DNA of 20,978 bases from IMG/VR virus record IMGVR_UViG_3300030430_004844, positions 1 to 20,978 of that record; one strand, 5' to 3'. Below, piece after piece: positions 2,362 through 18,612 of this stretch (the stretch's first letter is position 1; the number at the start of each line of letters is the position of its first letter). The notes below the pieces were generated by a model, which saw only the letters and a list, made by a program, of their open reading frames with translations, did no database searches and was not told the DNA's origin. Position numbers and translations under genes: made by a program. The stretch comes from a virus.

Positions 2362-2369
2362 TATAAATA
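2362..2369 (+). promoter_or_regulatory. T4-type late promoter
   Basis: An exact TATAAATA lies 22 bases before the ATG at 2392, directly after the terminator. TATAAATA is the T4 late promoter -10 element, recognised by the phage sigma factor gp55 with gp33 and the sliding clamp; no -35 element is needed. The gene's ribosome binding site, AGGAGG, is at 2379-2384. Confidence 0.85.
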
Positions 2370-2391: not shown

Positions 2392-3207
2392 ATGATTGAT
2401 TTAAATAAACTAGACAAAGCGTTCTTAGCTGAAGCTCAGAAACAGTATATATTCAATCTTACTTCTCAAGATTTTGGATCTAAGACTCATAAAAAAGAAA
2501 TACAATATTTGTTTAATTCAAATATATTTCCTAAATTTGATATGAATGATGCCATTGATGGCGTACCAAGAGATGCAGAACAACTTAATAAACTCATAAG
2601 AGAATTAAAAGGATATGGTAACGCAACATTTGAAAGAATATACAAATATCCCATGACAGGAGTTGGTCCTGGAGAGATAATGCTTTATTTCTTATTAAAT
2701 GATTGTACACTTGGTGGAGGTGGTTCTGCCGGAGTTGATATTAAGATTAGAGGTAGGAACTTTGAAGTTAAGTCAGTACTAAATCCTCAAGAAGAAAATT
2801 ATTCTTTTGTAAAAGGATTTAAGATTGGTGGAACAATGAATACTTCTGCCATGGTTTCTGCGGCGTTAAGTATAAAGAATCAAGCTATGGAGGCCAAAGA
2901 CATTGATAGAAATGATGAAGCATCTGGCGTTAGTAGTAAACAGATAAAACAAATTAGAAAAAATCCTACTTGGGGAAAGATGTGGAAAGAAAAAGTTGAA
3001 GGACCCTATGGAAAGATAGCAGGAAGATATATGTCAGCAAATCCAGTTATATTCATGATTAATACCTCACCAAAACCTAAACTTGGAGAAGTAGTTCACT
3101 TTGGCGCTGTAGAACCAGAGAATGTATTTTTAGATGTTGTCACTCAAAATGTTATTAAACCAGTTGTAAGAATAAAGGGACAGAAAGGTAAGGCTCCAGC
3201 TTCATGA
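2392..3207 (+). CDS. PD-(D/E)XK nuclease-like protein with possible capsid-targeting N-terminus
   Basis: This is a 271-residue protein. A restriction-endonuclease-like core is visible: Glu95 in GPGE, then a Gly-rich loop, Asp116 in GVDIKIRGRNFEVKSV, and Glu125-x-Lys127. That is the D-x8-ExK spacing and strand-loop-strand pattern of PD-(D/E)XK enzymes, which cleave DNA with metal ions. The N-terminus MIDLNKLDKAFLAEA contains Leu12-Ala-Glu14 followed by Ala, matching the (L/I)-x-E cut site of the T4 prohead protease gp21, so the protein may be packed in the head and trimmed. It is the first gene after a late promoter, and its stop overlaps the start of the ligase-like gene (ATGA). The target is unknown; host or competitor DNA, or phage DNA processing, are possibilities. 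The fold call is moderately firm, the packaging call is inference. Confidence 0.72.
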   Translation: MIDLNKLDKAFLAEAQKQYIFNLTSQDFGSKTHKKEIQYLFNSNIFPKFDMNDAIDGVPRDAEQLNKLIRELKGYGNATFERIYKYPMTGVGPGEIMLYFLLNDCTLGGGGSAGVDIKIRGRNFEVKSVLNPQEENYSFVKGFKIGGTMNTSAMVSAALSIKNQAMEAKDIDRNDEASGVSSKQIKQIRKNPTWGKMWKEKVEGPYGKIAGRYMSANPVIFMINTSPKPKLGEVVHFGAVEPENVFLDVVTQNVIKPVVRIKGQKGKAPAS

Positions 3208-4439
3208 TCGATTTTGATGAATTTATAACTGATCTTAATGAATCTAAAAACACTCATATGACTCATATTGAGGATAGAGTCATTTATGGTGGTGTCAATG
3301 GTACTCGTGAAGCTATATTTGCTCTTAGAGATTTAAGGGATATGTTAGGTGGTGTCAAAGATGGAAGTGTCAGCGTTAAGTGGGACGGAGCGCCTGCAAT
3401 ATTTTGTGGTACTGATCCATCTGATGGAAAGTTCTTTGTGGCAAAGAAAGGTATCTTTAATAAAAATCCAAAGATATACAAAACAAATAAAGATATTGAT
3501 GATGATACCTCAGGCGCTTTGAATAAAAAAATGAAGTTAGCATTACAATACTTGCCAGATCTTGGAATTAAAGGTGTTATACAAGGAGACTTTTTATACG
3601 GTCCTGGCGATTTGTCAAAACAAAAGATAAAAGGAAAGAAGTATGTAACTTTCCATCCAAATACTATTGTCTATGCCGTTCCAGATAATACACCATCAGC
3701 TATGGAAATTAAAAGAGCTAAAATTGGAATAGTATGGCACACAACTTATACAGGCAATTCGTTTGAAAGTATGAGAGCTTCATACGGTGTTGATGTTAAA
3801 AGACTTAGGAAGTCTCCAAACGTTTGGTCACAAGATGCTATGTTAAGAAACGCCATGAATGCAACTATGTCTAAAAAAGATACTGACACTGTGAATGAAT
3901 ATTTAAGTGAGATAGGACGAGTGTTTAATAGAATAGCAGGATCCACATTGAGACAACTTGAAGCTAACAAAGACTTAGCCCAACACATTGAACAACATTC
4001 AAATACTTTCGTAAGAGCTGGGCAAATACCACCAAATCCAAAGAGAAGAGTTGCGGCTCTAATAAGATTTATTAATACCAAGTATAAAAAAGAAATTGCT
4101 TCAAGAAAAACTGAAAAAGGAAAAGCTGGACAACAGAAAAAACTTGATGCTTTATTAGATTTCTTTTCACCACGCAATAGATCAAGTCTAGAACAAATGT
4201 TTGACCTACAAAGACTTATTGTTCTTGTAAAATTAAAACTTATAAATATACTAAATCGTCTTAATAAATTAGATACTTTTGTTAAGACAAGAAATGGATT
4301 TAAAACAACAGGGCAAGAAGGCTACGTAGCAATAGACAGACTTGGTGGTGATGCGGTAAAGATTGTTGATAGATTAGAATTTTCATACAACAACTTTTCG
4401 CCTAATGTATTAAAAGGATGGGACAAAGCCGGGAGATAA
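3204..4439 (+). CDS. KxDG adenylyltransferase / RNA-ligase-like protein
   Basis: This 411-residue protein has the signatures of the covalent nucleotidyltransferase (DNA/RNA ligase) superfamily. Motif I is Lys59-Trp-Asp-Gly62 in SVSVKWDGAPAIF, with Lys59 the expected AMP-accepting residue. A motif III-like segment is IQGDFLYG (about 127-133, Asp in place of the usual Glu), motif IV is Glu372-Gly-Tyr-Val375, and motif V is Val385-Lys386 in AVKIVDR. A long, mostly helical insert (about 200-360) separates III from IV, unusual for a minimal ligase. The N-terminus MIDFDEFITDLNES has an L-N-E site and resembles the neighbouring head-targeting sequences. It is translationally coupled to the nuclease-like gene. 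It could seal RNA or DNA, or be a repurposed AMP-transferring cargo; the substrate cannot be deduced. Confidence 0.72.
   Translation: MIDFDEFITDLNESKNTHMTHIEDRVIYGGVNGTREAIFALRDLRDMLGGVKDGSVSVKWDGAPAIFCGTDPSDGKFFVAKKGIFNKNPKIYKTNKDIDDDTSGALNKKMKLALQYLPDLGIKGVIQGDFLYGPGDLSKQKIKGKKYVTFHPNTIVYAVPDNTPSAMEIKRAKIGIVWHTTYTGNSFESMRASYGVDVKRLRKSPNVWSQDAMLRNAMNATMSKKDTDTVNEYLSEIGRVFNRIAGSTLRQLEANKDLAQHIEQHSNTFVRAGQIPPNPKRRVAALIRFINTKYKKEIASRKTEKGKAGQQKKLDALLDFFSPRNRSSLEQMFDLQRLIVLVKLKLINILNRLNKLDTFVKTRNGFKTTGQEGYVAIDRLGGDAVKIVDRLEFSYNNFSPNVLKGWDKAGR
4241..4248 (+). promoter_or_regulatory. intragenic TATAAATA, possible late start
   Basis: An exact late-promoter octamer sits inside the 3' part of the ligase-like gene, about 190 bases before the next start at 4442. 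T4-like late promoters need little beyond this octamer, so it could boost the downstream genes. Chance occurrence in AT-rich coding DNA is a serious alternative. Confidence 0.3.
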
Positions 4440-4441
4440 AA

Positions 4442-5011
4442 ATGAGTTTACCTAAGAACTTAAAACTGACTGATTTGATTCTAAAAGAACCTGTAGACTT
4501 CAAAGCTATGGGTCAAGATGATCAGATTAAATATCAAAGACATCGCAGAAGAACCAGTTATACCGGTGGAGAATCTGTTGAGTTCAGTGTTAATAACAGT
4601 AAAAGAAAAATAAATCCAGAAAACCTTACTCGAGAAGATATAAAGTTTCTTAAACAGATGTCAAAAGACGATCTGAGAGAAGCACTTACACTTATTCAAA
4701 GAATAAGACGAGGAAGGATGCTAAAAAGAATTAAATCTAAAATACAAAGAGGAGCAAGATTAGCAAGAAGAAGAGTCGCTAGTTTGGCAACCCTAACTAA
4801 AAGAGCAAGAAGAGCTGCTCGTAACCTAATCATTCAAAAAATTACAAAAGGCGTTTCAAAAGGAGATCTTCCTTTTGCACGTCGACAAGAATTAGAAAGA
4901 AGATTAGAAAAACCTGCTATTTCAAGAAGACTAGCTACAATAGCAAAGAGGTTGATACCGCAAATGAGAAAAGCCGAAGTACAAAGAAAACAAGCAGCGA
5001 GGGCAAAATAA
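4442..5011 (+). CDS. Arg/Lys-rich putative head-associated protein
   Basis: I place the start at 4442 (MSLPKNLKLTDLILKEP), which has GGGAG about 7 bases upstream and lies just after the previous stop; an in-frame ATG at 4418 overlaps the previous gene and has no such site. The product is 189 residues. The N-terminal quarter contains SYTGGESVEF; the rest is a long, highly basic helical region with repeated RR/KR runs (RRGRMLKRIKSKIQRGARLA) ending RKQAARAK. It resembles basic proteins common near head genes of marine myoviruses. DNA binding in the capsid is likely from charge, but no enzyme motif is present. L-K-E at 14-16 could be a processing site. Confidence 0.75.
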   Translation: MSLPKNLKLTDLILKEPVDFKAMGQDDQIKYQRHRRRTSYTGGESVEFSVNNSKRKINPENLTREDIKFLKQMSKDDLREALTLIQRIRRGRMLKRIKSKIQRGARLARRRVASLATLTKRARRAARNLIIQKITKGVSKGDLPFARRQELERRLEKPAISRRLATIAKRLIPQMRKAEVQRKQAARAK

Positions 5012-5013
5012 TA

Positions 5014-6168
5014 ATGATAAAAGGTTTTAGTCAATTTTTAGTTGAGGAAGAAAAGAATGTTTTCTTTACGTTCGGTAGAATGAATCCACCAACGATAGGT
5101 CATGGTTTACTTGTTGACAAACTTGCTTCTATGTCTGGCCGTAACCCTTATAGAATTTATCTTTCACAATCACAAGATTCTAAAAAGAATCCTTTGTCAT
5201 ATAATGATAAAGTTAAGTTTTCTAGGAAGATGTTTCGAAAACATGCTAGATCAATAATGATGAATAAAAAAGTTAAGACTGTTATGGACGTCGGTACAGC
5301 ACTTTATGATGAAGGATTTAGAAGTATAACAATGGTAGTTGGTAGTGATAGAGTAAGAGAGTTTAAAGTATTATTAGGTAATTATAATGGTAAAAAGAGT
5401 AGACACGGATTTTATAATTTTAAAGATATTAATGTCATGTCTGCTGGCGAAAGAGATCCGGATAGTGATACAACATCAGGTGCCTCTGCAACAAAACAAA
5501 GACAAGCAGCAGCGGATAATGACTTCGTTAAATTTTCACAAGGTCTTCCAAAAGATTCTTCTAATAAAGATGCAAAGGCCTTGTTTAATGCAGTGAGAAA
5601 AGGAATGGGATTGAAAGAAGAAACAGATTTTAGAAACAACGTAAAACTTGATTCTGTATCTGAAATTAGAGAAAAATTTGTCAATGAAAAAATTTACAAT
5701 GTTGGCGATCAAGTAGTAATTAAAGAAACAGATGAAGTTGCAACAATATCTCACAGAGGATCAAACTATGTGATATTAGAAAAGAGCGATAATACTATAG
5801 TTCGTAAATGGATAGATGCTATTGAAGCATTAGATGCAAAAGAAATACAAGCGATAGGATGGAATAACTACAAAAAAGATAGCAAAAAGAGTATGTATCC
5901 CGACTATCCAGACAGAGGAACTGATGCATCCGCAATGAAGGCTATGAGTATTACACCAGGACAAGCAATGGCGACAATAATGCCAGGAAAAAAATTAAAC
6001 TTTAAAAAGTTTACTGAAGTTCAAGATCCTGTTAAGTTAGCCAAAGATAGAGCGGCAAGAAGAAGTGCAGTCGCTGATAGGAGAAAAGCTGCCGTTGATA
6101 GAAGAAATGATGCTGCTATTGACAGAGCAATAATGGTAAAAGCAAGAATGAAGACAAGGAATAATTAA
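5014..6168 (+). CDS. HxGH-type nucleotidyltransferase fused to a beta module and a basic tail
   Basis: This is a 384-residue protein. Residues 1-11, MIKGFSQFLVE, form a capsid-targeting-like start with an L-V-E site. Residues 15-200 form a cytidylyltransferase-like domain: GRMNPPTIGH (21-30, the T-x-G-H form seen in phosphopantetheine adenylyltransferase), TMVVGSDRVREF (about 106-117) and SATKQR (158-163), equivalent to the ISxTxxR nucleotide-binding motif. Residues 227-272 (KIYNVGDQVVIKETDEVATI ... WIDAIEAL) look like a small SH3/KOW-type barrel. The tail (about 340-384) is a basic helix with repeated DRR/DRA. Enzymes with this fold transfer nucleotides to phosphorylated substrates such as NMN or choline-phosphate; the acceptor here is unknown. 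It starts three bases after the Arg-rich gene and may be delivered in the head. Confidence 0.78.
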   Translation: MIKGFSQFLVEEEKNVFFTFGRMNPPTIGHGLLVDKLASMSGRNPYRIYLSQSQDSKKNPLSYNDKVKFSRKMFRKHARSIMMNKKVKTVMDVGTALYDEGFRSITMVVGSDRVREFKVLLGNYNGKKSRHGFYNFKDINVMSAGERDPDSDTTSGASATKQRQAAADNDFVKFSQGLPKDSSNKDAKALFNAVRKGMGLKEETDFRNNVKLDSVSEIREKFVNEKIYNVGDQVVIKETDEVATISHRGSNYVILEKSDNTIVRKWIDAIEALDAKEIQAIGWNNYKKDSKKSMYPDYPDRGTDASAMKAMSITPGQAMATIMPGKKLNFKKFTEVQDPVKLAKDRAARRSAVADRRKAAVDRRNDAAIDRAIMVKARMKTRNN

Positions 6169-6179
6169 GGGAGAAAATT

Positions 6180-6989
6180 ATGTCTAAACTAAATATATTT
6201 GAGGAGTATGCAGATCTTTTTGAAGCAGAAGATATCGATCCAAAAGAATATGATTACGAAGGAGAGATGGCAAAGGACCAATTGGTAACAATGGCTGATG
6301 CTGCATCGGAACTGCATGATATGTTAGATGATACTGAAAATCTCCCAGAATGGTGTCAGAATAAAATATCAAAAGCAACAGATTATATCGATACAGTTAG
6401 AGACTATATGCTAGCAAAGAAGACTAAAGCTGGTGGAGCTGAACTTGATGATATTGAAAAAGATATGAAAGAGTATAAAGAACTGAATCCTACAAAAGCT
6501 GTTAATAAAATGGTTAATACTTTAGCTAAAAAAGTAAAGAGTATGAAAAAGAACGAAGGTAACGTTGATGAAATCTCAGTAGGAATGAGAAACAAATATT
6601 ATGATGCCGCTAAAAAATCACATGATAGAGCAGGAAATTCAGCTTTTGCCAGACATCTTAGAAAAGAACCTGGTATAGAAAAAGATTTAGATACAATGCG
6701 TAAAAGAAAAGCCGGTATAAAAATAGCTAAGAATCAAGCTATCAAAAATATCAGAAGAGAATTGTATCCAAAGAAAAAGAAAAATGAAAACGTCGATCCT
6801 ACATTAGAGCAATGGAAGCAAAAATTATCTGAATCTGTTGTTATAGAAAAATTAAAAGTTTCTGATGGAATGGGTGCATGGGTAAAGGACTTTCAAAAAA
6901 GTGATGCACCTCAATTCAAAGGAAAAGACGATAAAGAACGAAGAGATATGGCAATAGCCGCTTACTTATCAGCTAAAGAAGGGAATTAA
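6180..6989 (+). CDS. modular putative internal head protein (three modules)
   Basis: This 269-residue protein starts MSKLNIFEEYADLFEAED, in which Leu13-Phe-Glu15 followed by Ala fits the gp21 cleavage rule. Three segments follow, separated by charged linkers. Residues 23-83 (YDYEGEMAKDQL ... LPEWCQNKI ... DYIDTVRDYM) form a helical module; 128-190 (VDEISVGMRNKYYDAAKKS ... RKAGIKIAKNQAI) a second; and 224-269 (KLKVSDGMGAWVKDF, SDAPQFKGK, DMAIAAYLSAK) a third. I recognise all three as recurring modules in uncharacterised marine myovirus proteins, where they occur in varied orders. No enzyme motif is seen. GGGAG lies 5-8 bases before the ATG. The role as packaged internal protein is inferred from the N-terminus and context. 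Confidence 0.75.
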   Translation: MSKLNIFEEYADLFEAEDIDPKEYDYEGEMAKDQLVTMADAASELHDMLDDTENLPEWCQNKISKATDYIDTVRDYMLAKKTKAGGAELDDIEKDMKEYKELNPTKAVNKMVNTLAKKVKSMKKNEGNVDEISVGMRNKYYDAAKKSHDRAGNSAFARHLRKEPGIEKDLDTMRKRKAGIKIAKNQAIKNIRRELYPKKKKNENVDPTLEQWKQKLSESVVIEKLKVSDGMGAWVKDFQKSDAPQFKGKDDKERRDMAIAAYLSAKEGN

Positions 6990-6990
6990 A

Positions 6991-7188
6991 ATGATTGATA
7001 ATGAAGATAATGAAATTAATAATAAAATTTATGCAGCGTATAAACTAGCAACTCAAGGTTCAACAGTTGATCAGCAAAGAAGTGAGATTGAAGAAAAGAT
7101 CAAAGGGTTACAAGCAGAACTCGATACTTTAAATAAAGTTGAACCACCAGTAGAAGCAGCACCAGAGGAAAGTGATGAAAACATTTAA
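6991..7188 (+). CDS. small acidic coiled-coil protein
   Basis: This 65-residue acidic protein has a predicted coiled-coil stretch (SEIEEKIKGLQAELDTLNKV, about 33-52) and a Pro/Glu-rich tail (EPPVEAAPEESDENI). It contrasts in charge with its very basic neighbours and could act as an oligomerising or chaperone-like partner. It starts one base after the preceding stop, and its 3' end overlaps the next gene in another frame. The family is not recognised. Confidence 0.7.
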   Translation: MIDNEDNEINNKIYAAYKLATQGSTVDQQRSEIEEKIKGLQAELDTLNKVEPPVEAAPEESDENI

Positions 7189-7417
7189 ATCTTTTTTAGA
7201 AGGCACAGGTAAGAAAAAAGGCGAAACGTGGGAAGCCGGTTATAAGCGTAGGGTTGTAAAAACTACAAAGCCTGAGCACAAAGATAAAGGTTACAATTGG
7301 AGAATCAAGGGTAAAGAAAGACCTGAGATTTCAATAAGGTTATACAAAGAAAAGCCATCACAGGCTCAGTTTAACAAACAAATGAGAAGGGTAGCAGGTC
7401 ATGAATTCGGAGGTTAA
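7175..7417 (+). CDS. small basic protein with capsid-targeting-like start
   Basis: I prefer the ATG at 7175, with AGAGGAA at 7164-7170 upstream, over the GTG immediately before it. The product of 80 residues begins MKTFKSFLEG, very close to the T4 internal protein start MKTYQEF. The body (KKKGETWEAGYKRRVVKTT ... YNWRIKGKERPEISIRLYKE) is basic and probably beta-rich, with a short helical end. Strictly, the residue at P3 before the Glu is Phe, not Leu/Ile, so protease cleavage is less certain than for its neighbours. It overlaps genes on both sides by a few bases. Confidence 0.72.
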   Translation: MKTFKSFLEGTGKKKGETWEAGYKRRVVKTTKPEHKDKGYNWRIKGKERPEISIRLYKEKPSQAQFNKQMRRVAGHEFGG

Positions 7418-7760
7418 AAAATTTAAGAGTTACTTAAGGATAGATGAGTATTGCGAAGAATGTAATTTATATGAGGACCTAGAGATAACTGAAGCGGAAT
7501 ATCAAGGAAAAAAAGTAACACTTAATGACCCTATTCGCGCCAATGATGGAAAGAAAAAATTTCATGTATACGTTAAAAATGAAAAAGGTAATGTAATAAA
7601 ATTAGGATTTGGCGATCCAAATATGGAAATAAAAAGAGACGACCCTGCAAGGCGTCGATCATTTAGAGCAAGGCATAACTGTGATAATCCAGGACCAAAA
7701 TGGAAAGCAAGGTACTGGTCATGTTATCAATGGAGAGCCGGTGCAAAGGTAGATAATTAA
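7401..7760 (+). CDS. putative internal head protein with internal ITE/A site
   Basis: This is a 119-residue protein. The N-terminus contains KKFKSYLRIDEY, then an acidic Cys-containing linker (YCEECNLYEDLEI), then Ile-Thr-Glu followed by AEYQGKKVTL, a near-perfect gp21-type cut site. The domain after that site (VTLNDPIRANDGKKKFHVYV, GFGDPNMEIKRDDPARRRSF, RARHNCDNPGPKWKARYWSC) is one I recognise as highly conserved in marine T4-like phages, including the RHxCDNPGPKxKARYWSC block. It may bind metal or nucleic acid through its Cys/His residues, but no function is known to me. The start overlaps the end of the preceding gene. Confidence 0.78.
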   Translation: MNSEVKKFKSYLRIDEYCEECNLYEDLEITEAEYQGKKVTLNDPIRANDGKKKFHVYVKNEKGNVIKLGFGDPNMEIKRDDPARRRSFRARHNCDNPGPKWKARYWSCYQWRAGAKVDN

Positions 7761-8119
7761 TGTTAACATTTAAAACATATATTTCAGAAGATGGTCCTTG
7801 TTGGGATAGCCACAAACAAGTTGGCATGAAGAAAAAAGGAAACCGAATGGTTCCTAACTGTGTACCAAAAGAAGAACGTGCAGATAGACAACGTGAAGAT
7901 CCAGATATTGGTGATAGAAAAGGTTCGCAACCTGCAATATATCATAAAGGAATGTCTAAATCAAAAAAGTTAGCGAGAGATAGACAATTTAAGAAACAAA
8001 CTAAATTACCATCGCACATGGCTAAGGATGCGCCAGGCGATAAAGCTGCTCGAAAGAAACCAATGCCAAAGTCTAAACATACATTGGCATATCATAGAAA
8101 GTTTGGAAACAAGAAATGA
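7760..8119 (+). CDS. basic modular protein with capsid-targeting-like start
   Basis: This 119-residue protein starts MLTFKTYISED, a clear F-K-T-Y-I-S-E targeting-like sequence with an I-S-E site. Two small modules follow. One (CWDSHKQVGMKKKGNRMVPN, then CVPKEE; about 14-37) recurs in phage structural proteins. The other (GDRKGSQPAIYHKGMSKSKK ... DAPGDKAARKKPMPKSKHTL) resembles short basic modules in marine phages and giant viruses. The protein is extremely Lys-rich, consistent with binding DNA in the head. The start shares a TAATG overlap with the preceding gene, and its stop overlaps the next start (ATGA). Confidence 0.75.
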   Translation: MLTFKTYISEDGPCWDSHKQVGMKKKGNRMVPNCVPKEERADRQREDPDIGDRKGSQPAIYHKGMSKSKKLARDRQFKKQTKLPSHMAKDAPGDKAARKKPMPKSKHTLAYHRKFGNKK

Positions 8120-10269
8120 CCATAAAAAAGAAAACTGTAGATGAGGGAACTTACAAAGTAGAGATAGAAGGTCTTCCCAAGATGTACATCGATACAGATA
8201 ATCCAGGAGAACTTAGAAGAGACCTTAGAAAGATCGTAAGAAAAGTTGATATGGTTAAAAACGTTGAAAGAGTTCAAAAGTCTGAAGTAAGAAAAGATTT
8301 GCAGTTAAAAATACAAGGAAAAGACGACATGGAAGAAAATAAGAGACCAGGATTATGGGCTAATATGCATGCGAAGAAAAAACGTGGAGAGGCACCAGCT
8401 AAAAAAGGCGATAAAGACTATCCAAGTGATGACGCTCTAAAAAGAGCTCGTGGAGAGAATGTAGATGAACTTGCAATGGGTCAAGGAGTAGAAATTAAAA
8501 AAACAGCAGTTGGAGACAGACCAAAAGGTATTGGTTGGAGTCTCAAAAAATCAGGTCAACAGACTGGAAAAGATCATGACGTCTGGCATAGAGTAACAAA
8601 GCCAGTTGCACAACCAAAAATAAGAGCGGGGTCAACAATGTACAGCAGTAAGAACGAATCATTTTTCTTTGTAACAGAAGATCAAATTAAAAGAGATGGC
8701 GCAAAGATTAAGAAAGCGTATGCAGCAATAGCTACAGAAGATATGAATGTAATAACTAAACATCTTAAGAAACAAGGTATAGATCACGATCATGACAAAG
8801 GTGAATTATATGTAAGAAGACAAGATCATAGAGATGTTATGAATCATCTTAACGACTTGATGAAAAAGAAAATGATCAAGAGTAAACCTCCTGTAACTGC
8901 AGAAAAGTTAGACAAAGATGATGAACCATTTATAAAGAATTTAATAAAGAATCTTAGAAAGGGTTCAAAAACTCACGGTGGTCAGGCTGATGATTTAGAA
9001 AAGGCAATGAAAGAATCAGTAACTCAGACACCTGGTGATAGTTATCATCACTTACAAAAAGCAAAAAGACTAGCTTCAGCTGACGGCCATGATTATGATA
9101 AGCTTCCAAAGTATCACAGAGGAAAAGATGTACCTCATCAAGCTCATTACGATGATAAAGCTAAAAATGAAGCAAGAGGTGTACCCAGAAATTATACAAA
9201 GAAATTTTCAAATTTGAATTTGAAGAAAGCAAGAGAACTCATGAGCCCTGCAAAACATAGACAGGACGGTATTGATCGTATAGCAAAAGGTATGGGTATC
9301 AGTAAAGCTAGGGCAGCTAAACATCACGATGATGTTATGAAGTCTTATGGATTTAAAACTGAAGATAAAGGTCGTGGACCTACAGGAATAGCTTATTCTC
9401 TTCCAAAAGGTCATCCAGACGCAGAAAATCCTGCAACAGGAAAAAAATACCCTGAAAGACAGACTGATAAGTATAAAGCAGATTATGCAAAGAACAGTCC
9501 TCTAAAGTTAAGTGGAAAATTTGCAAAGAATGAATCTGATGACTATCACTATTCAACAGGCGAACCACTTAATAAAAAGTTATCACCTAAAGCGCAAAAA
9601 GCAAAAGATGCTCAAGCAAGAATAGACAAGAAGTTTGCACCTGGTGGAAGTTACTCAAAAGGTGCTGATCAAATTAGAAAAGTTATTGCTAAAAATGAAG
9701 CTATGGATCCAGTAACATTAGGAAAAATGCAGGCTCAAGCTGCGGCCACTCAAAGAGCGAATCAAAAGAAAAGAGATGAAAAAGAAAAAAAAGATATGGC
9801 CAAAAAAGCAACTCATGAAATGGTAACACGTAGAGGCAAGCCGATATTTCAACCAAAGCCGGGTGATTCACCTGAAAGAACTGCAATGATCAAGTCAACT
9901 CAAGCTAGTTTACAAAAAAGAAAAGACAGACTAGCAAAAGCAAAAAAAGACAGGGCAGCTGCTTATAAGGCAGGTAAACCATTTGATATGGTAAGAGCAC
10001 TAGGTTATGGTAAATCAGTAGAAGCAAATGAAGAAAAAAAGAAGAAGAAAGGTCTTGCCGCAAAAGCTGAAAAGTCTGGAATGCCACTTGGTATATTAAG
10101 GCAAGTATACAATAGAGGAATGGCTGCGTGGAAAACTGGTCATAGGCCTGGAACCACACCTCAGCAATGGGCAATGGCTAGAGTAAATTCATTCGTAACA
10201 AAATCCTCAGGTACTTGGGGTAAAGCCGATAAAGATTTGGCCGCTAAAGTAAGAGCAGCTAAAAAATAA
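8116..10269 (+). CDS. giant Lys-rich modular protein, putative head cargo
   Basis: This 717-residue, very basic protein is built as beads on a string. Residues 1-70 form a compact domain (GTYKVEIEGLPKMYIDTDNP). Residues 79-103 (GLWANMHAKKKRGEAPAKKG and following) match a short module common in marine phage proteins. Residues 210-250 carry a GIDHDHDKGELYVRRQDH module that recurs in the protein at 10590. Linkers repeatedly contain K-N-E or similar (AKNEAR, AKNESD, AKNEAM, EANEEK). The last 75 residues (LGILRQVYNRGMAAWKTGHR ... TTPQQWAMARVNSF ... WGKADKDLAAK) resemble what I remember as DUF5824. No enzyme motif is evident. It begins in the stop of the preceding gene (ATGA) and is followed by a late promoter. 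It may be a processed polyprotein or a DNA-condensing internal protein; both are inference. Confidence 0.75.
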   Translation: MTIKKKTVDEGTYKVEIEGLPKMYIDTDNPGELRRDLRKIVRKVDMVKNVERVQKSEVRKDLQLKIQGKDDMEENKRPGLWANMHAKKKRGEAPAKKGDKDYPSDDALKRARGENVDELAMGQGVEIKKTAVGDRPKGIGWSLKKSGQQTGKDHDVWHRVTKPVAQPKIRAGSTMYSSKNESFFFVTEDQIKRDGAKIKKAYAAIATEDMNVITKHLKKQGIDHDHDKGELYVRRQDHRDVMNHLNDLMKKKMIKSKPPVTAEKLDKDDEPFIKNLIKNLRKGSKTHGGQADDLEKAMKESVTQTPGDSYHHLQKAKRLASADGHDYDKLPKYHRGKDVPHQAHYDDKAKNEARGVPRNYTKKFSNLNLKKARELMSPAKHRQDGIDRIAKGMGISKARAAKHHDDVMKSYGFKTEDKGRGPTGIAYSLPKGHPDAENPATGKKYPERQTDKYKADYAKNSPLKLSGKFAKNESDDYHYSTGEPLNKKLSPKAQKAKDAQARIDKKFAPGGSYSKGADQIRKVIAKNEAMDPVTLGKMQAQAAATQRANQKKRDEKEKKDMAKKATHEMVTRRGKPIFQPKPGDSPERTAMIKSTQASLQKRKDRLAKAKKDRAAAYKAGKPFDMVRALGYGKSVEANEEKKKKKGLAAKAEKSGMPLGILRQVYNRGMAAWKTGHRPGTTPQQWAMARVNSFVTKSSGTWGKADKDLAAKVRAAKK

Positions 10270-10270
10270 C

Positions 10271-10278
10271 TATAAATA
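10271..10278 (+). promoter_or_regulatory. T4-type late promoter
   Basis: An exact TATAAATA lies in the 32-base gap between two genes, 23 bases before the ATG at 10302, a spacing almost identical to that of the promoter at 2362. It would start the second late transcription unit. Confidence 0.85.
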
Positions 10279-10301
10279 GTAACTAGTAAAAAGGTATTAA
10301 C

Positions 10302-10577
10302 ATGGAAGTTTTAGGACAACGACTAGATCGTATAGAAGATAAATTAGATAAGTTGGCAGACGCTATGGTCGCAATGGCACGTGCAGAAGAAAAGTTAGAG
10401 GCTCTACAGAACGAGCATAACAAGATGTATGAACGTGTCAATCGTTTGTCCGCAAAACTTGATGATATCGAAAGTGGAGTTCAAGAGAATTCTAAGACCG
10501 TTCAGGTCATCAACAAACTATTCTGGGTCGCTATTGTTGCGGCTTCTGGCGCTATAGCCGCAAACATTTGGATGTAA
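10302..10577 (+). CDS. XhlA-like coiled-coil protein with C-terminal membrane helix
   Basis: This is a 91-residue protein. Residues 3-70 form a long amphipathic coiled coil (LGQRLDRIEDKLDKLADAMV ... EKLEALQNEHNKM). Residues 72-91 (LFWVAIVAASGAIAANIWM) form one membrane helix at the C-terminus. This architecture matches XhlA-type haemolysin/holin-accessory proteins, which sit at the inner membrane during lysis. It has its own late promoter, so it may be expressed strongly. A structural role, for example in tail or head assembly at the membrane, is a possible alternative. The lysis assignment is inferred from architecture. Confidence 0.7.
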   Translation: MEVLGQRLDRIEDKLDKLADAMVAMARAEEKLEALQNEHNKMYERVNRLSAKLDDIESGVQENSKTVQVINKLFWVAIVAASGAIAANIWM

Positions 10578-10589
10578 AAGGAGAAAAAA

Positions 10590-12404
10590 ATGGATCATTC
10601 TGATATAGATCACGGAAACATGACCAGCGCCTATCTTAAGGTCATTCGTGGTGAAAAACAAGAAACATTAAAAGAGATTGTTACTCCCGGAGGGGAACAA
10701 TTAGATGAAGCAAGACTCGTAACAAGAGATGGTAAGTTTATTGTCATGACTGATAACGATACCGAAGCAGCAACTTTTGAAGACAGAGAGTCAGCTTTAG
10801 AATATATTAAAAACAATAAAGAAAAGCTAATGGTACGCGATGATAAAGCCAAACCAGCCACTACCGATAAGATAGAAGCTAAAGAAGGAAAAGAAGTATT
10901 TATCGTCCCAGAAGAAATTGTTGATACAAAAGAAAGAAATGCTTTCATGGGTGCTGCTGCCGCCGCTCATAAAGCGGGTAAGTCTCATTTTAACTTTGCT
11001 GGTAAAAAACATAAAGTTACTATGAGTAAAGATACAGCGAAAGCTATTAATAACAGCGTTAAAGAAGATGCAAGAGATCATTGTCATTCAAAAGATCATG
11101 ATTGTGCCACTATAGTACATCATCCAAAATGGGGTATAGGCAAACCAATATATGAAAGCCACGCGATACCAACTGATGATGGATATGTAGCATGGTATGA
11201 TGTAGAGTTTGATCATGGAATCGAAAGAGAAGTTCCTACTAAAGATATGACAGTTTATACAACTGAAAAGCATAAGATGAATGCGGCTAAAAAAGTAAAA
11301 GAGGAAATGAAATGTGGTCCTGGGCAGTACTATTGTAAGTCTTCAGGTACGTGTAAGCCGATTCCAGATGGCATGAAGGTAGATGATAATGGAGATCTTG
11401 TGAAGGAAGCTGTAAAATATCCTCATGCAATGTATGATCCAAAGACTGGAGAAAAGGTTATGGCTAAAACTCCAGCTGATCATAACAAGTACGATAAAAT
11501 GGGATACACTCATGAAAAGCCAAAGATTGATGAAAACAATCCTGCTCATTTTGCCGCTATAGCAAAAGCTAATGCTAAAAGAGATAAAGAAATGGGTAGA
11601 TCACCTACACCTAATATGAATGATCCTAAGTTTAAGATGACAAAAAGGGATGGAACCAAAGATCGTATGAATCCTACAGGAGCTTTAACTGGTTATCGAT
11701 CAAAAATAGAATCTGCAAATCCAATGTCTAAGTTAACACCAACTCAAAGACAAGCTCTTTCAAGAATGAAAGTTAAGAAGAAGGGTGATGTAACTTTACC
11801 AGGTATGGATCTTTTAAAGAAAACTGAAAAACCGAAGATGAAACCTGGAAGACAGAGTCAGATAGTAAAGTATGAAGGATATGAAGCTGATGTATCAAAG
11901 TTCATGAATAAGCACGGAATTGATCATCATTGGTCTGGTGGTAAACTACACGTGGATAAAAAAGATCATGCTCGTGCAGATAAGAAACTAGAGAAAAAAT
12001 ATGGTGGTTATGGACCACGTGGTGCAAAGATGAAACCACAGCTACACATCAATAAGGAGTCAACCTCGGTTACAAGATCAAACTGGCTAGAAAAGTTTTA
12101 TGAAAAAAGAAATAGCATGAATGAAGACTATAAACAATCTCCACATGCTGGTAGTGATGATACAAAAGATTCTTTCGCAAAACAATTATCTACTAGGAAA
12201 GGCGAGGAAGCATTTGTAAAGGCTCACGAAATTCAAACTCCTGAGTACGCTGATGGTCCAACCGTTAATATCAAGACATTTAAAGCTATGACAGCAGGTG
12301 TCAATGGTCCTAAGTACAGATCAAATGATAATAGCCAAGGAGATAAAACACCAGTTGAACCTGTTAATGTAGGAAAAGCTGGGCAAGTAGGAGCAAAGGA
12401 TTAA
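10590..12404 (+). CDS. second giant modular protein, putative head cargo
   Basis: This 604-residue protein has Leu38-Asp-Glu40 followed by Ala, a gp21-type site, before a compact domain (ARLVTRDGKFIVMTDNDTEA, 41-85). A helical module follows (VFIVPEEIVD ... HFNFAGKKHKVT, 103-158). Next come a probable His/Cys-containing beta domain (DHCHSKDHDC ... YVAWYDVEFDHGIEREVPT, 163-218), a short Cys-rich module (Cys242, Cys249, Cys255), an MYDPKTGEKVMAKTPADHNK segment (281-300) and a GIDHHWSGGKLHVDKKDH module (443-460) shared with the protein at 8116. I recognise several of these as recurrent in marine myovirus proteins. No catalytic motif is seen. GGAG lies 8-11 bases upstream of the start. The packaging role is inference. 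Confidence 0.75.
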   Translation: MDHSDIDHGNMTSAYLKVIRGEKQETLKEIVTPGGEQLDEARLVTRDGKFIVMTDNDTEAATFEDRESALEYIKNNKEKLMVRDDKAKPATTDKIEAKEGKEVFIVPEEIVDTKERNAFMGAAAAAHKAGKSHFNFAGKKHKVTMSKDTAKAINNSVKEDARDHCHSKDHDCATIVHHPKWGIGKPIYESHAIPTDDGYVAWYDVEFDHGIEREVPTKDMTVYTTEKHKMNAAKKVKEEMKCGPGQYYCKSSGTCKPIPDGMKVDDNGDLVKEAVKYPHAMYDPKTGEKVMAKTPADHNKYDKMGYTHEKPKIDENNPAHFAAIAKANAKRDKEMGRSPTPNMNDPKFKMTKRDGTKDRMNPTGALTGYRSKIESANPMSKLTPTQRQALSRMKVKKKGDVTLPGMDLLKKTEKPKMKPGRQSQIVKYEGYEADVSKFMNKHGIDHHWSGGKLHVDKKDHARADKKLEKKYGGYGPRGAKMKPQLHINKESTSVTRSNWLEKFYEKRNSMNEDYKQSPHAGSDDTKDSFAKQLSTRKGEEAFVKAHEIQTPEYADGPTVNIKTFKAMTAGVNGPKYRSNDNSQGDKTPVEPVNVGKAGQVGAKD

Positions 12405-12408
12405 TACT

Positions 12409-12849
12409 ATGAAAAAATTTAAAGCTTTTTTAGAGGAAGAACTTAATTCATATATGGCGACCACTAAAACAATGCAAGGCGTAGTTCATGCTAGAGATGA
12501 AGATCATGCAAGAGAGATCATGAGAAAGAAACATGGTGCTAAAGGAGATATTAGTTTAAGGTTAAAAGGACCTGTAAGTAAAACTCAAAGAGTAGCTCAT
12601 GGTGCAAGACCGAGGCGTGAAGGCACTGAAGTTAAAGAAATATCAAAGAAGACAGTAGGTAGTTATATTAAGAAAAGAGTTTATGATGTTGGCTCTGCCG
12701 CTGGTAGAATGACAGGAGATTACGGAATAGGTCCTGAAGAAAAGAAAAAAAATAGATCTAAAGCTGTTAGTCAATATGTGAAATATCAAAAAGGCACTAA
12801 TAGAGCTGTAGATAAATTAACAGGAAAGGCTAGAGTTCCTGCAACTTAA
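12409..12849 (+). CDS. putative internal head protein with capsid-targeting-like start
   Basis: This 146-residue protein starts MKKFKAFLEEEL, with L-E-E as a possible cut site. Residues 15-60 form a small alpha/beta segment (MQGVVHARDEDHAREIMRKK). Residues 77-146 carry a module starting EISKKTVGSYIKKR and ending GTNRAVDKLTGKARVPA. The module has the same beginning (EIS) and ending style (R/K-x-x-G-x-x-x-A-x-x-K) as the middle module of the protein at 6180, suggesting shared cargo domains. Basic composition. It starts five bases after the previous stop. Confidence 0.72.
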   Translation: MKKFKAFLEEELNSYMATTKTMQGVVHARDEDHAREIMRKKHGAKGDISLRLKGPVSKTQRVAHGARPRREGTEVKEISKKTVGSYIKKRVYDVGSAAGRMTGDYGIGPEEKKKNRSKAVSQYVKYQKGTNRAVDKLTGKARVPAT

Positions 12850-12863
12850 TTAGTACATTTATT

Positions 12864-13232
12864 ATGCAATTATTTGATAAGTTAACTGAAGACAATCTTT
12901 TGTTATATGCCGCAAAGCAGTATTACAACCCGACTTGTATAGATCCTGAAGAATTTTATGAAGATCTAAATCGGTTTAAGTATATTAAAAGATTAGTCAA
13001 CAAGTATTTAGAAACTGGTAAGATATCAGAAAGATTGATATTGAATCATATGATAACAGTTTTTAATGCCTTTGATATAAAACCAACTCTAAAAATATTA
13101 GAGTTTAAATTTGATGGAAGACAGTGGGAGGTTTTAAAACCTTTCTTAGTGTTTTTAAAACATATAAAGAATGATGAGTATGTTGAAATAAAAATGGATA
13201 AACACGTAATAGAACAACTGAGGAAGATTTAA
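12864..13232 (+). CDS. conserved T4-like phage protein of unknown function
   Basis: This 122-residue protein begins MQLFDKLTEDNLLLYAAKQY, with YNPTCIDPEEFYEDLNRFKY and a hydrophobic core around LILNHMITVFNAFDI. I recognise it as closely resembling a strongly conserved cyanophage/pelagiphage protein that normally has a partner like the next gene. It is all-helical in appearance and lacks the Lys-rich bias of the cargo proteins. The first residues include L-T-E followed by D, but given the conserved hydrophobic context this may simply be part of the fold. Function unknown; the next gene starts after a one-base gap. Confidence 0.75.
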   Translation: MQLFDKLTEDNLLLYAAKQYYNPTCIDPEEFYEDLNRFKYIKRLVNKYLETGKISERLILNHMITVFNAFDIKPTLKILEFKFDGRQWEVLKPFLVFLKHIKNDEYVEIKMDKHVIEQLRKI

Positions 13233-13233
13233 A

Positions 13234-13815
13234 ATGGGAATGATTAAAAGAGCAGCGGATCTTGTATATACTTTTAGATTCTTAACTTTATTAGTTACTC
13301 CATTTGAAAAGACCGAAGCTTTTAAATTAGGTTTGCTTGACGCAAAAGGAAAGAAACTTAAGAAAGCAAAAACCGCTGAAGAAAAAAACGCATACACACC
13401 TTTTCACAGATTAGTATTCAATATTAAGAGACTGATGGAAAAAGTTCCAGGTGGTTCTTCTTCTGTTGCCTCATATGCTGCAGCATTGTATCTCATCAAA
13501 GAACAAAATGGTTTAAAAGAAAAAGATATAAAACAAATCGTTGAAAAGTCTGGATTTGAAACTTATGATTTCTTAGCAGAAAAAAGCGATTGGTTTATTT
13601 TAGAAGATGGAATGATATCGCCAGGAATGTATAAAGTTAAGTATAGTAAGATCGTAAATAGTACATACGAAGAGTTAGTACAAAAAGGAGATAGAGTTAG
13701 AATACATGACAATGCATATCCAGTAGGAGAAGTATTTGGACTTCCGATATATGAAGCAACTCATGATAAATCAAATCAAAAGATTTATCTAGCATCAGAG
13801 GAGTTGTTAGCGTAA
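13234..13815 (+). CDS. conserved T4-like phage protein, partner of the preceding gene
   Basis: This 193-residue protein starts MGMIKRAADLVYTFRFLTLL. The ATG at 13234 has AGGAAG seven bases upstream; the ATG two codons later has none. Recognisable conserved blocks are FEKTEAFKLGLLD, YTPFHRLVFNIKRLMEKVPG and SSVASYAAALYLIKE. A C-terminal beta-rich part (GDRVRIHDNAYPVGEVFGLP) follows. It resembles a conserved but unnamed marine myovirus protein found beside homologues of the preceding gene. The paired conservation suggests a shared structural or assembly role, but no motif proves it. Confidence 0.75.
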   Translation: MGMIKRAADLVYTFRFLTLLVTPFEKTEAFKLGLLDAKGKKLKKAKTAEEKNAYTPFHRLVFNIKRLMEKVPGGSSSVASYAAALYLIKEQNGLKEKDIKQIVEKSGFETYDFLAEKSDWFILEDGMISPGMYKVKYSKIVNSTYEELVQKGDRVRIHDNAYPVGEVFGLPIYEATHDKSNQKIYLASEELLA

Positions 13816-14411
13816 TGGCAGATCCAAAAGTTGGAACAGGTAAAAAACCAAAGGGTTCAGATAGAAGATTATATACTGATGAGAATCCTGATGATACCGT
13901 AAGAATTAAGTTTGCTACTAATGCAGATGCAAAAGCTACAGTGGCTAAAGTAAAAAAAGTAAAAAAACCTTTTGCTCGAAAGATTCAAATATTAAATGTC
14001 GGTCAACAAAGGGCTAAAGTTATGGGTAAGAAAGCGGTAGTAAATACATTTGAAAAAGGTAAAAATCAGATAAGAGCAAAAGAAATGGCGAAGAGAGAAA
14101 AGAAGAAGGAAACAAATGAAATGTCAAATAGAACCAGAGATGGACATAATCAAAGGGCCTATGATAGACAAATAGGCCAACTTAAAAAGTTTCTCGATAG
14201 AAAGAAAAGATTATTTCCTGAAAGACCAAAAGATAAACCAACACAAAAAGAAGAAGTTCCTGGAAATGCTATTGCACGTGGAGGAGTCGACATGGCTCCA
14301 AACATGGGACCAAGATTTAAAGCTCATGATGTTACAGATAAAAGATATAAAAAAGATAAAATTCCAAGAGTACTTAGAAGATTTAAGTCATACATAACAG
14401 AGCCTCAATGA
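13815..14411 (+). CDS. basic modular protein with a targeting-like motif at its C-terminus
   Basis: This 198-residue protein begins with a module KPKGSDRRLYTDENPDDTVR ... IKFATNADAKATVAKVKKVK, which I recognise from marine phage and giant-virus proteins (SGRRLYTDExPxDTVxIKF type). A highly basic middle and a segment VPGNAIARGGVDMAPNMGPR follow. The last residues are RRFKSYITEPQ: FKSYITE is exactly the form found at the N-termini of neighbouring proteins (FKTYISE, FKTYVVE), here at the C-terminus. GAGGAG lies upstream and the start overlaps the previous stop (TAATG). The stop overlaps the next start (ATGA). Confidence 0.75.
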   Translation: MADPKVGTGKKPKGSDRRLYTDENPDDTVRIKFATNADAKATVAKVKKVKKPFARKIQILNVGQQRAKVMGKKAVVNTFEKGKNQIRAKEMAKREKKKETNEMSNRTRDGHNQRAYDRQIGQLKKFLDRKKRLFPERPKDKPTQKEEVPGNAIARGGVDMAPNMGPRFKAHDVTDKRYKKDKIPRVLRRFKSYITEPQ

Positions 14412-14869
14412 TTAAATTTAAAACATATGTAGTTGAAAAATGGAAAGATCCACACCATAGTGAAGAGCATGATGAAGTTCATACTCAACTTGGTGTACCA
14501 AAGCACGTATTTCCAGATCATGTTAATAAACAGCTCAAGCATCTTTCTAATAAATCTAATTTTGAAAAGGCAATGAAATCTGCTAAGACAACTCATATTC
14601 ATCATTCTGATAAGAACCTTCATAAGATGGGTAATACAGACGCTGCTGACAAAAGAGGAATAATGCATAATCCAGAGATTGATGATTCCAAAAGAAAAAG
14701 AGTGTCAAGTCAGTACGATAAAGCATCATCTAAAAATAAAATGACGAAACCAATAATATTACATCATAAAGCAAGTGGTCATAAACATCTATTGGCTGGA
14801 AATACCAGGTTGACACATGGTGTACAAGATAGAAAAGAAAAAGTTCCAGTCCACACAATAGAGTATTAA
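14408..14869 (+). CDS. ParB/sulfiredoxin-like protein with capsid-targeting-like start
   Basis: This 153-residue protein starts MIKFKTYVVEKW, a targeting-like sequence. The C-terminal 40 residues read KPIILHHKASGHKHLLAGNT, then RL, and finish VPVHTIEY. This matches the core of the ParB/sulfiredoxin fold: a strand, then (H/Y)-L-(L/I)-A-G-x-x-R (Gly131 to Arg134), a helix, and a final VPVxxI strand. Members bind or hydrolyse nucleotides (CTP in ParB) and some cut DNA. The His-rich middle (HHSEEHDEVH, THIHHSDKNLHKM) is unusual. It starts within the stop of the preceding gene. The fold call is moderate; the substrate is unknown. Confidence 0.68.
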   Translation: MIKFKTYVVEKWKDPHHSEEHDEVHTQLGVPKHVFPDHVNKQLKHLSNKSNFEKAMKSAKTTHIHHSDKNLHKMGNTDAADKRGIMHNPEIDDSKRKRVSSQYDKASSKNKMTKPIILHHKASGHKHLLAGNTRLTHGVQDRKEKVPVHTIEY

Positions 14870-14872
14870 ATT

Positions 14873-15304
14873 ATGGCAAGACTTTACGGTATATTATTAA
14901 TCCTTGGGATACTAGGTGTAGTTGGATACGCATGTTATTCATACTATACGTCAACACAAGAACGAATCGCAGTTCTCACATCCAACAACGCTAAATTAGA
15001 AACGGCCTTATCATCTACAAAGGTCGCTTTTGAAACATATCAAAATAACGTAAAAGATGAGATTGAAAGATTCAAAGCAGAAATCAAGAGACAACAAGAA
15101 TTAAATGATGAGTTAAACAATAACTTACAAAAAGTGAAAGCCAACAATAAAGTAATAACAGACTTGTTAGCAGAAAACGATATAATTAAAAATAGTCTTG
15201 CAGACCCGCAAGCAACAGAGGATAAAATAAATGAAGAAGTGGACTTATTTTTTGGCGCTATTAATTGTGCCTCTAATAGTAAATGCGTGCAGCAAAGCGA
15301 CTGA
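14873..15304 (+). CDS. i-spanin (Rz-like inner-membrane spanin)
   Basis: This 143-residue protein has a short N-terminal membrane anchor (residues 5-26, YGILLILGILGVVGYACYSY) followed by a long periplasmic coiled coil (about 28-120, rich in heptad Leu/Ile with KLETAL, RFKAEIKRQQELNDEL). That is the Rz/i-spanin architecture. Its 3' end overlaps by 74 bases the start of a lipoprotein gene in another frame, the typical overlapping spanin arrangement. Spanin pairs bridge and fuse inner and outer membranes in the last step of lysis, so the host is inferred to be Gram-negative. The C-terminus has a Cys pair (INCASNSKC) that may form a disulfide. Confidence 0.85.
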   Translation: MARLYGILLILGILGVVGYACYSYYTSTQERIAVLTSNNAKLETALSSTKVAFETYQNNVKDEIERFKAEIKRQQELNDELNNNLQKVKANNKVITDLLAENDIIKNSLADPQATEDKINEEVDLFFGAINCASNSKCVQQSD

Positions 15305-15617
15305 AAAAGAAATCGTAACTGTTCCTCAGGTAGTGGAGACTCCTAAGATTGATGCTCCACAAATACGTATAGTACAAAGGCCTATACCAATTGAGATGAA
15401 GAACGCAGACATTATTGTCGTAACTGAAAATAACATAGATGAAGTAATTGATAGGGTTGTTAACACTCAAGGTGAATTTGTTTTATACGCAATGACAGCT
15501 CAAAGTTTCGAATCATTAGCTTTAAACTTTGAACAAATTAAAAGATTCATAGAAGCTCAGAATCAAGTAATATTATATTATGAAAAATCTGTTATAATCG
15601 AAAAGGATTTAGAATGA
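15231..15617 (+). CDS. o-spanin (Rz1-like outer-membrane lipoprotein)
   Basis: This 128-residue protein has a lipoprotein signal: MKK, a hydrophobic stretch, then Val17-Asn-Ala-Cys20 as the lipobox. A Pro-containing segment follows (VPQVVETPKIDAPQIRIVQR), typical of o-spanins, and then a folded C-terminal part (ADIIVVTENNIDEVIDRVV ... FVLYAMTAQSFESLAL). It is longer than lambda Rz1. The 5' end lies in another frame inside the i-spanin gene. The lipid-anchored protein would sit in the outer membrane and bind the i-spanin coiled coil. The extra C-terminal domain is a feature I recall in marine myoviruses. Confidence 0.8.
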   Translation: MKKWTYFLALLIVPLIVNACSKATEKEIVTVPQVVETPKIDAPQIRIVQRPIPIEMKNADIIVVTENNIDEVIDRVVNTQGEFVLYAMTAQSFESLALNFEQIKRFIEAQNQVILYYEKSVIIEKDLE

Positions 15618-18591: not shown

Positions 18592-18612
18592 TGAGTTTAA
18601 AAAGGTAAAGAA

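Follow-up and report, generated by a model that had tools for sequence, protein, structure and literature searches.

The gene cluster at positions 2,392 to 14,869 of a 20,978-base viral fragment (IMG/VR record IMGVR_UViG_3300030430_004844; the whole fragment is hereafter called the window) quite probably serves a marine T4-like phage as a cargo island, whose proteins would be targeted by a shared N-terminal tag, cut by a gp21-family protease and ejected to act at once in the host. The island would be expressed from T4-type late promoters, and at least six, probably seven, of its proteins would enter the prohead core through a T4-type capsid-targeting tag, the aromatic residues at tag positions 4 and 7 targeting the protein. 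A gp21-family prohead protease would cut after (I/L/V)xE; the mature protein would stay in the head with the DNA and, ejected at infection, would be active in the host without delay. The observations read from sequence are the tag and its junction, its spread over unrelated protein bodies, the turnover of tagged genes, the protease gene of a relative and the promoter motifs; published experiment adds the presence of the cytidylyltransferase in virions of the relative S-SM1.

Results

Six window proteins, starting at 5014, 7175, 7401, 7760, 12409 and 14408, open with a common tag, which reads F-x-x-(F/Y)-(I/L/V)-x-E or departs little from it. The initial annotation had quoted these N-termini as a family; all six are present where it had placed them, and the family was confirmed by a strict pattern (^M.{0,7}[FY]..[FY][ILVM].E, significance by shuffling) and by a profile trained on environmental loci alone, without T4 sequences. 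The pattern selected 4 of the 35 gene calls of the window, with a shuffle mean of 0.07 and none of 300 shuffles reaching 4; 7175 (FKSFLEG) and 7401 (FKSYLRIDE) fell outside it. The profile placed the six at ranks 1-6 of 35, and the shuffled window genes expected at equal score were 0.00 for five of them and 0.06 for 7401. This ranking is not fully independent, since at the 5014 protein the window shares 90-93% identity with training loci L013-L021. All tags, genes and promoter motifs of the island given here lie on the plus strand. Pattern and profile recovered the tags MIKGFSQFLVE (5014..5046), MKKFKAFLEE (12409..12438), MIKFKTYVVE (14408..14437) and MLTFKTYISE (7760..7789), the last of which immediately precedes DGPCWDSHKQVG. 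The tag MKTFKSFLE (7175..7201) starts at an ATG one codon inside a GTG-initiated reading frame at 7172, and relatives with the same body bear FLEE or the variant FREIREG; the tag MNSEVKKFKSYLRIDE (7401..7448) corresponds to MKKFKQYIDE in C48C1.

A diverged tag overlooked in the initial annotation opens the DUF6267 protein (3204..3242; F4, F7, I8, D10). Its candidate junction is LNE/S at residue 13, LNE coming three residues after D10. The profile score of this tag alone is weak (3.0, 0.36 expected); diverged in the window, the tag is conserved in orthologues. A fair count for the window is six clear tags and one diverged tag. The initial annotation had reckoned with about ten products, including 2392, 6180 and 10590 on account of (L/I)xE sites. 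These three have no tag, and such sites near the N-terminus are too common: (L/I)xE occurs within the first 45 residues in 636 of 1,302 genes of at least 100 amino acids, and (L/I)xE-A in 97 of 1,302. With about half of the genes having one, gp21-type sites were rejected as stand-alone evidence. Profile scores were 3.7 for 2392 (0.26 expected) and -2.8 for 6180 (2.78 expected), and 10590 lay outside the best 16 of 35. The FLAE/A of 2392 sits within the conserved body, where relatives read FISKA, FLQRA or similar, and several relatives bear a true tag upstream of the equivalent site. C-terminal tags were considered as well and rejected: window protein 13815 ends in FKSYITEPQ, yet C-terminal motifs were not enriched (3 of 1,862 genes versus 4.3 expected).

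The tag was then counted in a related set of 178 loci from four scans, with several contigs contributing two or more overlapping loci. In two of the scans the best 80 relatives were retained, out of 596 and 594, so the sample is skewed to close relatives. Gene calls were mechanical (open reading frames of at least 40 amino acids, longest first), and the counts therefore contain some false genes. After a redundancy filter (18 of 25 identical N-terminal residues), 130 of 2,065 non-redundant genes bore the strict tag, against 3.3 expected by shuffling (at most 9 in 200 shuffles) and 4.0 in internal stretches. All except one of the 130 were on the plus strand. Their bodies fell into 29 clusters without detectable similarity at E 1e-4, the three largest holding 45, 19 and 18 of the tagged N-termini; one of the 29, a 40-residue minus-strand reading frame, is doubtful and probably due to chance. 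A de novo count over 1,790 related genes gave F..F..E as the most enriched N-terminal triple of residue classes (127 versus 7.4 expected), followed by FK.F and F...I.E; in these class symbols F means F or Y, K means K or R, and I covers I, L, V and M.

Tagged genes sat at positions -3 to +9 around DUF6267, most densely from -2 to +4, with few at +13 to +16 and none at -12 to -4 in the related loci. Among 116 loci with DUF6267, 6 had no strict tag, 23 had one, 34 two, 28 three, 22 four and 3 five; the figure of about ten was thus not reached in any of these loci, many of which are short. The closest annotated complete phage among the matches listed was C48C1 (Kyanoviridae), 65% identical to the window DUF6267 protein; next among them, at 34-45%, came Stenotrophomonas phage DLP_6, Methylophilales Melnitz phages, cyanophages and Pelagibacter phage HTVC008M. 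In C48C1, 6 of 234 gene calls matched the strict pattern (0.18 by shuffling), all in one 11-kb stretch around DUF6267, and the top six of the 234 by profile likewise fell in one 11-kb stretch. The pattern selected 3 of 163 gene calls in the T4 part (IPII, IPIII and 61.1), 1 of 86 in the S-SM1 part and 0 of 48 in the S-PM2 part; the control genomes P-SSP7 (60 calls) and lambda (75 calls) had none. The tag is not exclusively marine, since DLP_6 (L197), a soil phage whose replication genes are T4-like, bears it on DUF6267 (MMKFTQFLAE).

Pfam was run on 19 of the 29 cluster representatives. Five passed the curated cut-off: cytidylyltransferases, DUF6267, adenylate kinase (1.7e-43), a Zeta-toxin/AAA_33-type kinase and a HAD-type protein (DUF2608); the other 14 had no match passing it. 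Ten of the tagged bodies run on Pfam gave a single match among them, under its cut-off. PADLOC, run on ten proteins, found no match for seven window proteins, L143 and L083, and two weak matches for L108 (VakA, 0.00029; GajA, 0.0031).

A second N-terminal class, MK(T/S)Fxx(I/L)RE, recurs in the related loci, where 47 of 2,065 genes fit its pattern versus 6.6 by shuffling; L028:1794, L024:5940 and L158:8694 are examples. About 12 of the 47 belong, judged by eye, to one DUF7207-like family. In L028 the window 7175 body bears this class.

The link to T4 came from the profile and from the conserved columns of the tag. On 282 T4 gene calls the profile ranked 61.1 (19.8), IPIII and IPII (both 13.4) and IPI (6.6) at positions 1-4; the shuffle expectation at these scores was 0.00 for the first three and 0.80 for IPI. 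On S-SM1 it placed the cytidylyltransferase first of 230 (0.02 expected). In 77 DUF6267 N-termini, gathered without requiring a tag, the columns of lowest entropy were P1 (E, 0.41), P7 (F, 1.03), P2 (T, also S; 1.27) and P3 (I/L, 1.36), then P4 (F/Y, 2.32), with P5, P6, P8 and P9 each above 3 bits. P7, P4, P3 and P1 correspond to residues 4, 7, 8 and 10 of IPIII. In amber-suppression experiments on IPIII, residues 4 and 7 were assigned to targeting and 8 and 10 to processing, and aspartate at 10 permitted targeting and blocked processing (PMC9026906; papers given by PMC number are cited from excerpts of their text).

The junction was similarly well kept. Among 79 DUF6267 N-termini (the column analysis dropped those shorter than 8 residues), the residue preceding xKNTH was E in 74 and P3 was I or L in 72, and the Pfam DUF6267 match started after the tag, at residue 16 in the window, 14 in C48C1 and 11 in HTVC008M. 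The DUF6267 proteins of P-HM2, ACG-2014h and P-RSM6 are untagged and start with M-(S/A)-KNTH or M-A-KNTH, which is the predicted start of the cleaved protein; that of S-CRM01, also untagged, starts with MAKDGKNVH. The cytidylyltransferase is tagged in S-SM1, P-RSM6 and, in diverged form, S-CRM01. Since the untagged cyanophage DUF6267 starts at the would-be cleaved end and the cytidylyltransferase is tagged in some phages only, the tag looks like a removable appendage.

Evidence from virions concerns one tagged protein. Mass spectrometry of purified S-SM1 virions found 41 proteins, among them the cytidylyltransferase T4-GC190 (PMC3037559); the S-SM1 record gives this label to the tagged gene, whose tag is MKKFSAFLNE. 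According to the same excerpt, T4-GC190 was not detected in S-PM2 virions, and seven T4 structural homologues were likewise missed there. The annotated S-PM2 protein starts without a tag, and its first part overlaps a DUF6267 match. The contrast between the two phages is weak because the S-PM2 start is uncertain and the structural homologues were also missed.

The head machinery is found in C48C1, where portal, gp21, gp22 (by annotation) and gp23 stand in T4 order. Its gp21 is a Peptidase_S77 (E 1.9e-39) and its gp23 was matched at E 3.1e-141 by Pfam; the gp23 cleavage site reads GFLTE-T versus SFLTE-A in T4. The motif TATAAATA, which we take to be the gp55-type T4 late promoter, occurs in the related loci 428 times on the plus and 22 times on the minus strand, most commonly starting 30-39 bases before a gene start. 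The window has four, all on the plus strand. Three stand just before 2392, 10302 and 16942, the first at 2362..2369, 22 bases before the 2392 ATG at the head of the cluster, the second at 10271..10278; the fourth (4241) lies inside gene 3204.

Comparison with the near relative L014 pointed to rapid turnover. Identity to the window is 85-93% over the aligned pieces, with a single exception at 74% (7175-8067). Gene 14408 is missing in L014, its neighbours being joined directly, and in the slot of 12409 stands a different tagged protein, which starts MKSFKTHILE and whose C-terminus is perhaps related. Inside the L014 6180-type gene lies a match to the second half of 12409 (216 bases, 88%). The 7760 body retains DGPCWDSHKQVG in L014 behind another tag, an extra gene starts with MKTFSQIRDDLNE, and the gene in the place of 2392 appears by eye to be a strongly diverged relative. 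On this alignment, tagged genes are gained, swapped or re-tagged, and bodies, domains and tags appear to be exchanged on a short time scale.

The island begins with a predicted PD-(D/E)xK-like nuclease (2392..3207; D116...E125-x-K127), untagged here and tagged in several relatives. Its D...ExK motif is invariant in eight sequences and its AlphaFold model has a mean pLDDT of 85. Structure comparison returned only three VIA rows, all restriction endonucleases (NhoI twice, DpnI) at weak Z of 3.5-3.9, the best being NhoI 8q5n (Z 3.9, rmsd 4.3, 116 aligned; a weak match); Foldseek gave no match at E 0.001. The DUF6267 protein follows (3204..4439; Pfam E 3e-102, domain match from residue 16, past the tag), its orthologues being labelled T4-GC71. 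Stretches KWDG, EG(Y/F)V and VKxVDR are conserved, and we take them as presumably ligase-like motifs, a lead only. A ligase assignment was not supported, with no profile match to two T4 ligases, no Pfam ligase match and a poor model (pLDDT 51); among PDB sequences a single chain was matched, a transaminase at E 0.23.

Next come a very basic 197-residue protein (4418..5011), untagged here and tagged by a loose pattern in 8 of 95 relatives in the loci, and the nucleotidylyltransferase-like protein of the T4-GC190 family (5014..6168), the S-SM1 member of which was detected in virions. The latter scores 20.1 bits for CTP_transf_like, just below the cut-off of 21, which relatives in C48C1 (26.5) and S-SM1 (30.4) pass. 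With a PHROG cytidyltransferase match at 1.7e-64 and the motif GRMNPPTIGH, its sequence places it in the nucleotidylyltransferase superfamily by the CTP_transf_like domain. The cytidylyltransferase alignment gave no match among PDB sequences at E 0.01.

The remaining genes are mostly small or modular. An untagged modular protein (6180..6989), whose L014 relative holds a stretch found in window 12409, precedes three putative cargo proteins: a small basic one of 80 residues (7175..7417), one of 119 residues with a phrog_7595 domain (7401..7760) and a small basic one with a weak, sub-cut-off match to the N-terminal half of DUF5824 (7760..8119). A basic, untagged protein of 717 residues (8116..10269) ends in a DUF5824 stretch that is elsewhere a small tagged protein, for example in L066. 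DUF5824 was thus seen in several arrangements: as a C-terminal stretch (8116-10269), as two halves on different proteins (with 7760-8119) and, in other phages, by itself in a small protein with a tag. The idea that 8116 is a polyprotein was rejected, as it has no (L/I/V/F)xE-(A/S) sites and only four NE(A/S) stretches. Behind it lie a modular protein of 604 residues (10590..12404), untagged here and tagged in 1 of 29 relatives in the loci; the putative tagged cargo protein 12409..12849, which shares its second half with part of the L014 6180-type gene; and the putative tagged cargo gene 14408..14869, which has no relatives in the related loci and is absent from L014. The C-terminal half of the latter (PIILHH...LAGNTRL...VPVHTIE) resembles by eye a ParB/sulfiredoxin-type domain, with no match in Pfam. 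Directly past the island, 14873-15617 is an overlapping gene pair with Rz-like spanin PHROG matches. Three successive long proteins at 16942-20954, the first (16942) behind the late promoter motif at 16916, look alike by eye in their N-terminal or middle parts and are perhaps virion or fibre proteins.

The high rank of T4 gp61.1 found a parallel in gp23. Residues 2-38 of gp61.1 align without gaps (37 residues) to gp23 57-93, across the cleavage site, with a score of 82 versus 29.3 (standard deviation 4.7) for shuffled sequences and 0 of 500 shuffles as high. Just past the site, S-SM1 gp23 is also matched by two small genes of the cyanophages S-SM1 and P-RSM6 that bear the annotation "major head protein", with 0 of 500 shuffles as high for each. 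These gp23-like small proteins lie near gp61, at 18966-19130 of T4 NC_000866 (L012), 27805-28353 of S-SM1 L010 and 14406-14783 of P-RSM6 L204. Of 11 pairs tested, these three were clear and P-HM2 GC538 was marginal (19 of 500 shuffles); for the genes of P-HM2 and P-RSM6 the reference was S-SM1 gp23, not the gp23 of the same phage. The likeness was not significant for the C48C1 61.1-like protein, window 13815, L149, HTVC gp142 and HTVC gp143, nor in the controls 61.1 with gp24 and IPII with gp23. A search with the 54-residue gp61.1 matched 1,386 phage records, and part of these matches may be to gp23 itself. The alignments suggest a common origin of the tag and the gp23 processing site, at least for T4 61.1. 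A wider scenario, conceivable though doubtful, is that the tag derived from the gp23 processing site: 61.1 would be a free-standing copy of the junction, and T4-like phages throughout the ocean would have taken up short pieces of it as portable tags, loading fast-exchanged virion enzymes that hit host defences before phage gene expression.

Discussion

Several points weigh against our interpretation. We infer packaging, cleavage and ejection in the window phage, for which we found no proteomics, from sequence and from relatives, and the 21-kb window holds no head genes. The pattern that chose the training set of the profile was composed with the T4 tag known; the de novo triple count and the conserved columns of the DUF6267 tags are free of this bias. 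P2 is conserved in DUF6267 yet absent from the IPIII positions reported as critical. Not every junction is canonical, since that of 7175 is FLE-G and D stands at position 10 of the window DUF6267. Four of five cyanophages have an untagged DUF6267, the fifth (S-WAM2) being annotated from inside the domain; S-PM2 and S-SM1 also lack a clear tag on it, and the cytidylyltransferase is untagged in P-HM2, ACG-2014h and S-WAM2. HTVC008M had no strict tag in 209 gene calls and a best profile score of 6.6 (0.36 expected), and one of the 60 P-SSP7 control genes scored 9.2, with 0 of 75 in lambda at 8 or above. Finally, the TATAAATA count of the window (4) is not above chance (mean 2.58), so that only strand and position speak, and in the related loci only 43 of 252 tagged genes, besides 137 of 1,854 untagged ones, have a copy of the motif no more than 150 bases away.

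The tagged proteins might instead enter the prohead only to assist head building as core or scaffold components, a role proposed for IPIII together with gp22, without being injected as effectors. The tag logic would be identical, IPIII mutants affect head assembly (PMC9026906), and several window proteins are strongly basic. We nevertheless consider this unlikely: the tagged proteins of relatives include adenylate kinase, a Zeta-toxin/AAA kinase, a HAD-type phosphatase and a nucleotidylyltransferase, rapid turnover better suits the cargo of an arms race, and T4 IPI inhibits a restriction enzyme (PMC3012670), while IPIII is required on strain ECOR17 and works in the cytoplasm without its tag (PMC9391042). 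A convergent likeness to the T4 tag, with the motif serving as docking peptide for another phage machine such as the replisome, would fit the placement of the island beside replication genes in HTVC008M, S-PM2 and S-SM1. It is very improbable in view of the gp21 rule (I/L)xE kept at the junction of otherwise variable tags, the T4 internal proteins being the top T4 matches after 61.1, the S-SM1 protein known in virions and the late-promoter motifs. Chance, or common ancestry of one gene family, drew on the shortness of the motif and the orthology of many N-termini (45, 19 and 18 of 130 in three clusters), and is already refuted by 130 of 2,065 tagged genes versus 3.3 (4.0 in internal stretches), the 29 unrelated body clusters, the de novo enrichment and the absence of strict tags from P-SSP7 and lambda.

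The T4 capsid-targeting interpretation given in the initial annotation was supported, by motif enrichment, the ranking of T4 internal proteins, the junction, the gp21 gene of C48C1, the late-promoter motifs and the S-SM1 virion protein; the size it had claimed was not. Its statement that the cargo goes far beyond that of T4 applies to diversity across the family and not to the count in the window. The tag system as such is already known from T4 and the T-even phages, and what we describe is a marine, fast-changing and enzyme-bearing version of it. The capsid-targeting sequence of the T4 internal proteins goes back to Mullaney and Black 1996, as cited in PMC9026906 and PMC9391042. IPI, IPII and IPIII share with the marine family the four key tag positions, the (L/I)xE junction and unrelated bodies behind one tag. 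The T-even internal proteins form a highly diverse defence set in which only the capsid-targeting sequence is conserved (PMC3012670), one tag on varied proteins as in the marine family, described for T-even phages. Unlike the T4 internal proteins, the marine tagged proteins include probable enzymes and modular domain proteins, their genes form an island at the DUF6267/cytidylyltransferase locus, and the set swaps tags and domains and differs between close relatives. The cyanophage virion protein T4-GC190 is a relative of window 5014; the excerpts of PMC3037559 report it as a virion protein and mention neither a tag nor cleavage. Ejection proteins of the SPN3US/phiKZ type, which belong to another phage lineage, share with the proposed system many head proteins and cleavage by a prohead protease. 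In searches of an open-licence library, which is not the whole literature, we found no account of enzyme-rich modular tag islands in marine phages (Kyanoviridae).

The role of each cargo protein is speculative. As a whole, the cargo would most likely counter host nucleases or other first-line defences, or act on the nucleic acids and nucleotide metabolism of the host. Like dmd, tifA and 61.2 in T4, the island falls in the interval from gp41 to gp61 in HTVC008M, S-SM1 and S-PM2, and not in C48C1; the T4 region with these three genes has been termed a possible anti-toxin island (PMC9391042). Because of the roles of T4 IPI and IPIII and the gp41-gp61 placement shared with the T4 anti-toxin genes, we favour, by analogy, early counter-defence or host take-over as the role of the cargo.

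In conclusion, the tag offers a rule, read from sequence, for picking out likely virion cargo in marine T4-like phages, many of whose genes are unannotated, and the set of proteins that such a phage injects becomes open to test. A T4 curiosity would become a general delivery route with enzymes as cargo, the gp41-gp61 counter-defence interval of T4 (dmd, tifA, adfA) would be linked to the island that its marine relatives carry, and a proposal can be made on where the tag came from. The cluster probably supplies the host with a changing kit of enzymes and small proteins alongside the phage DNA.

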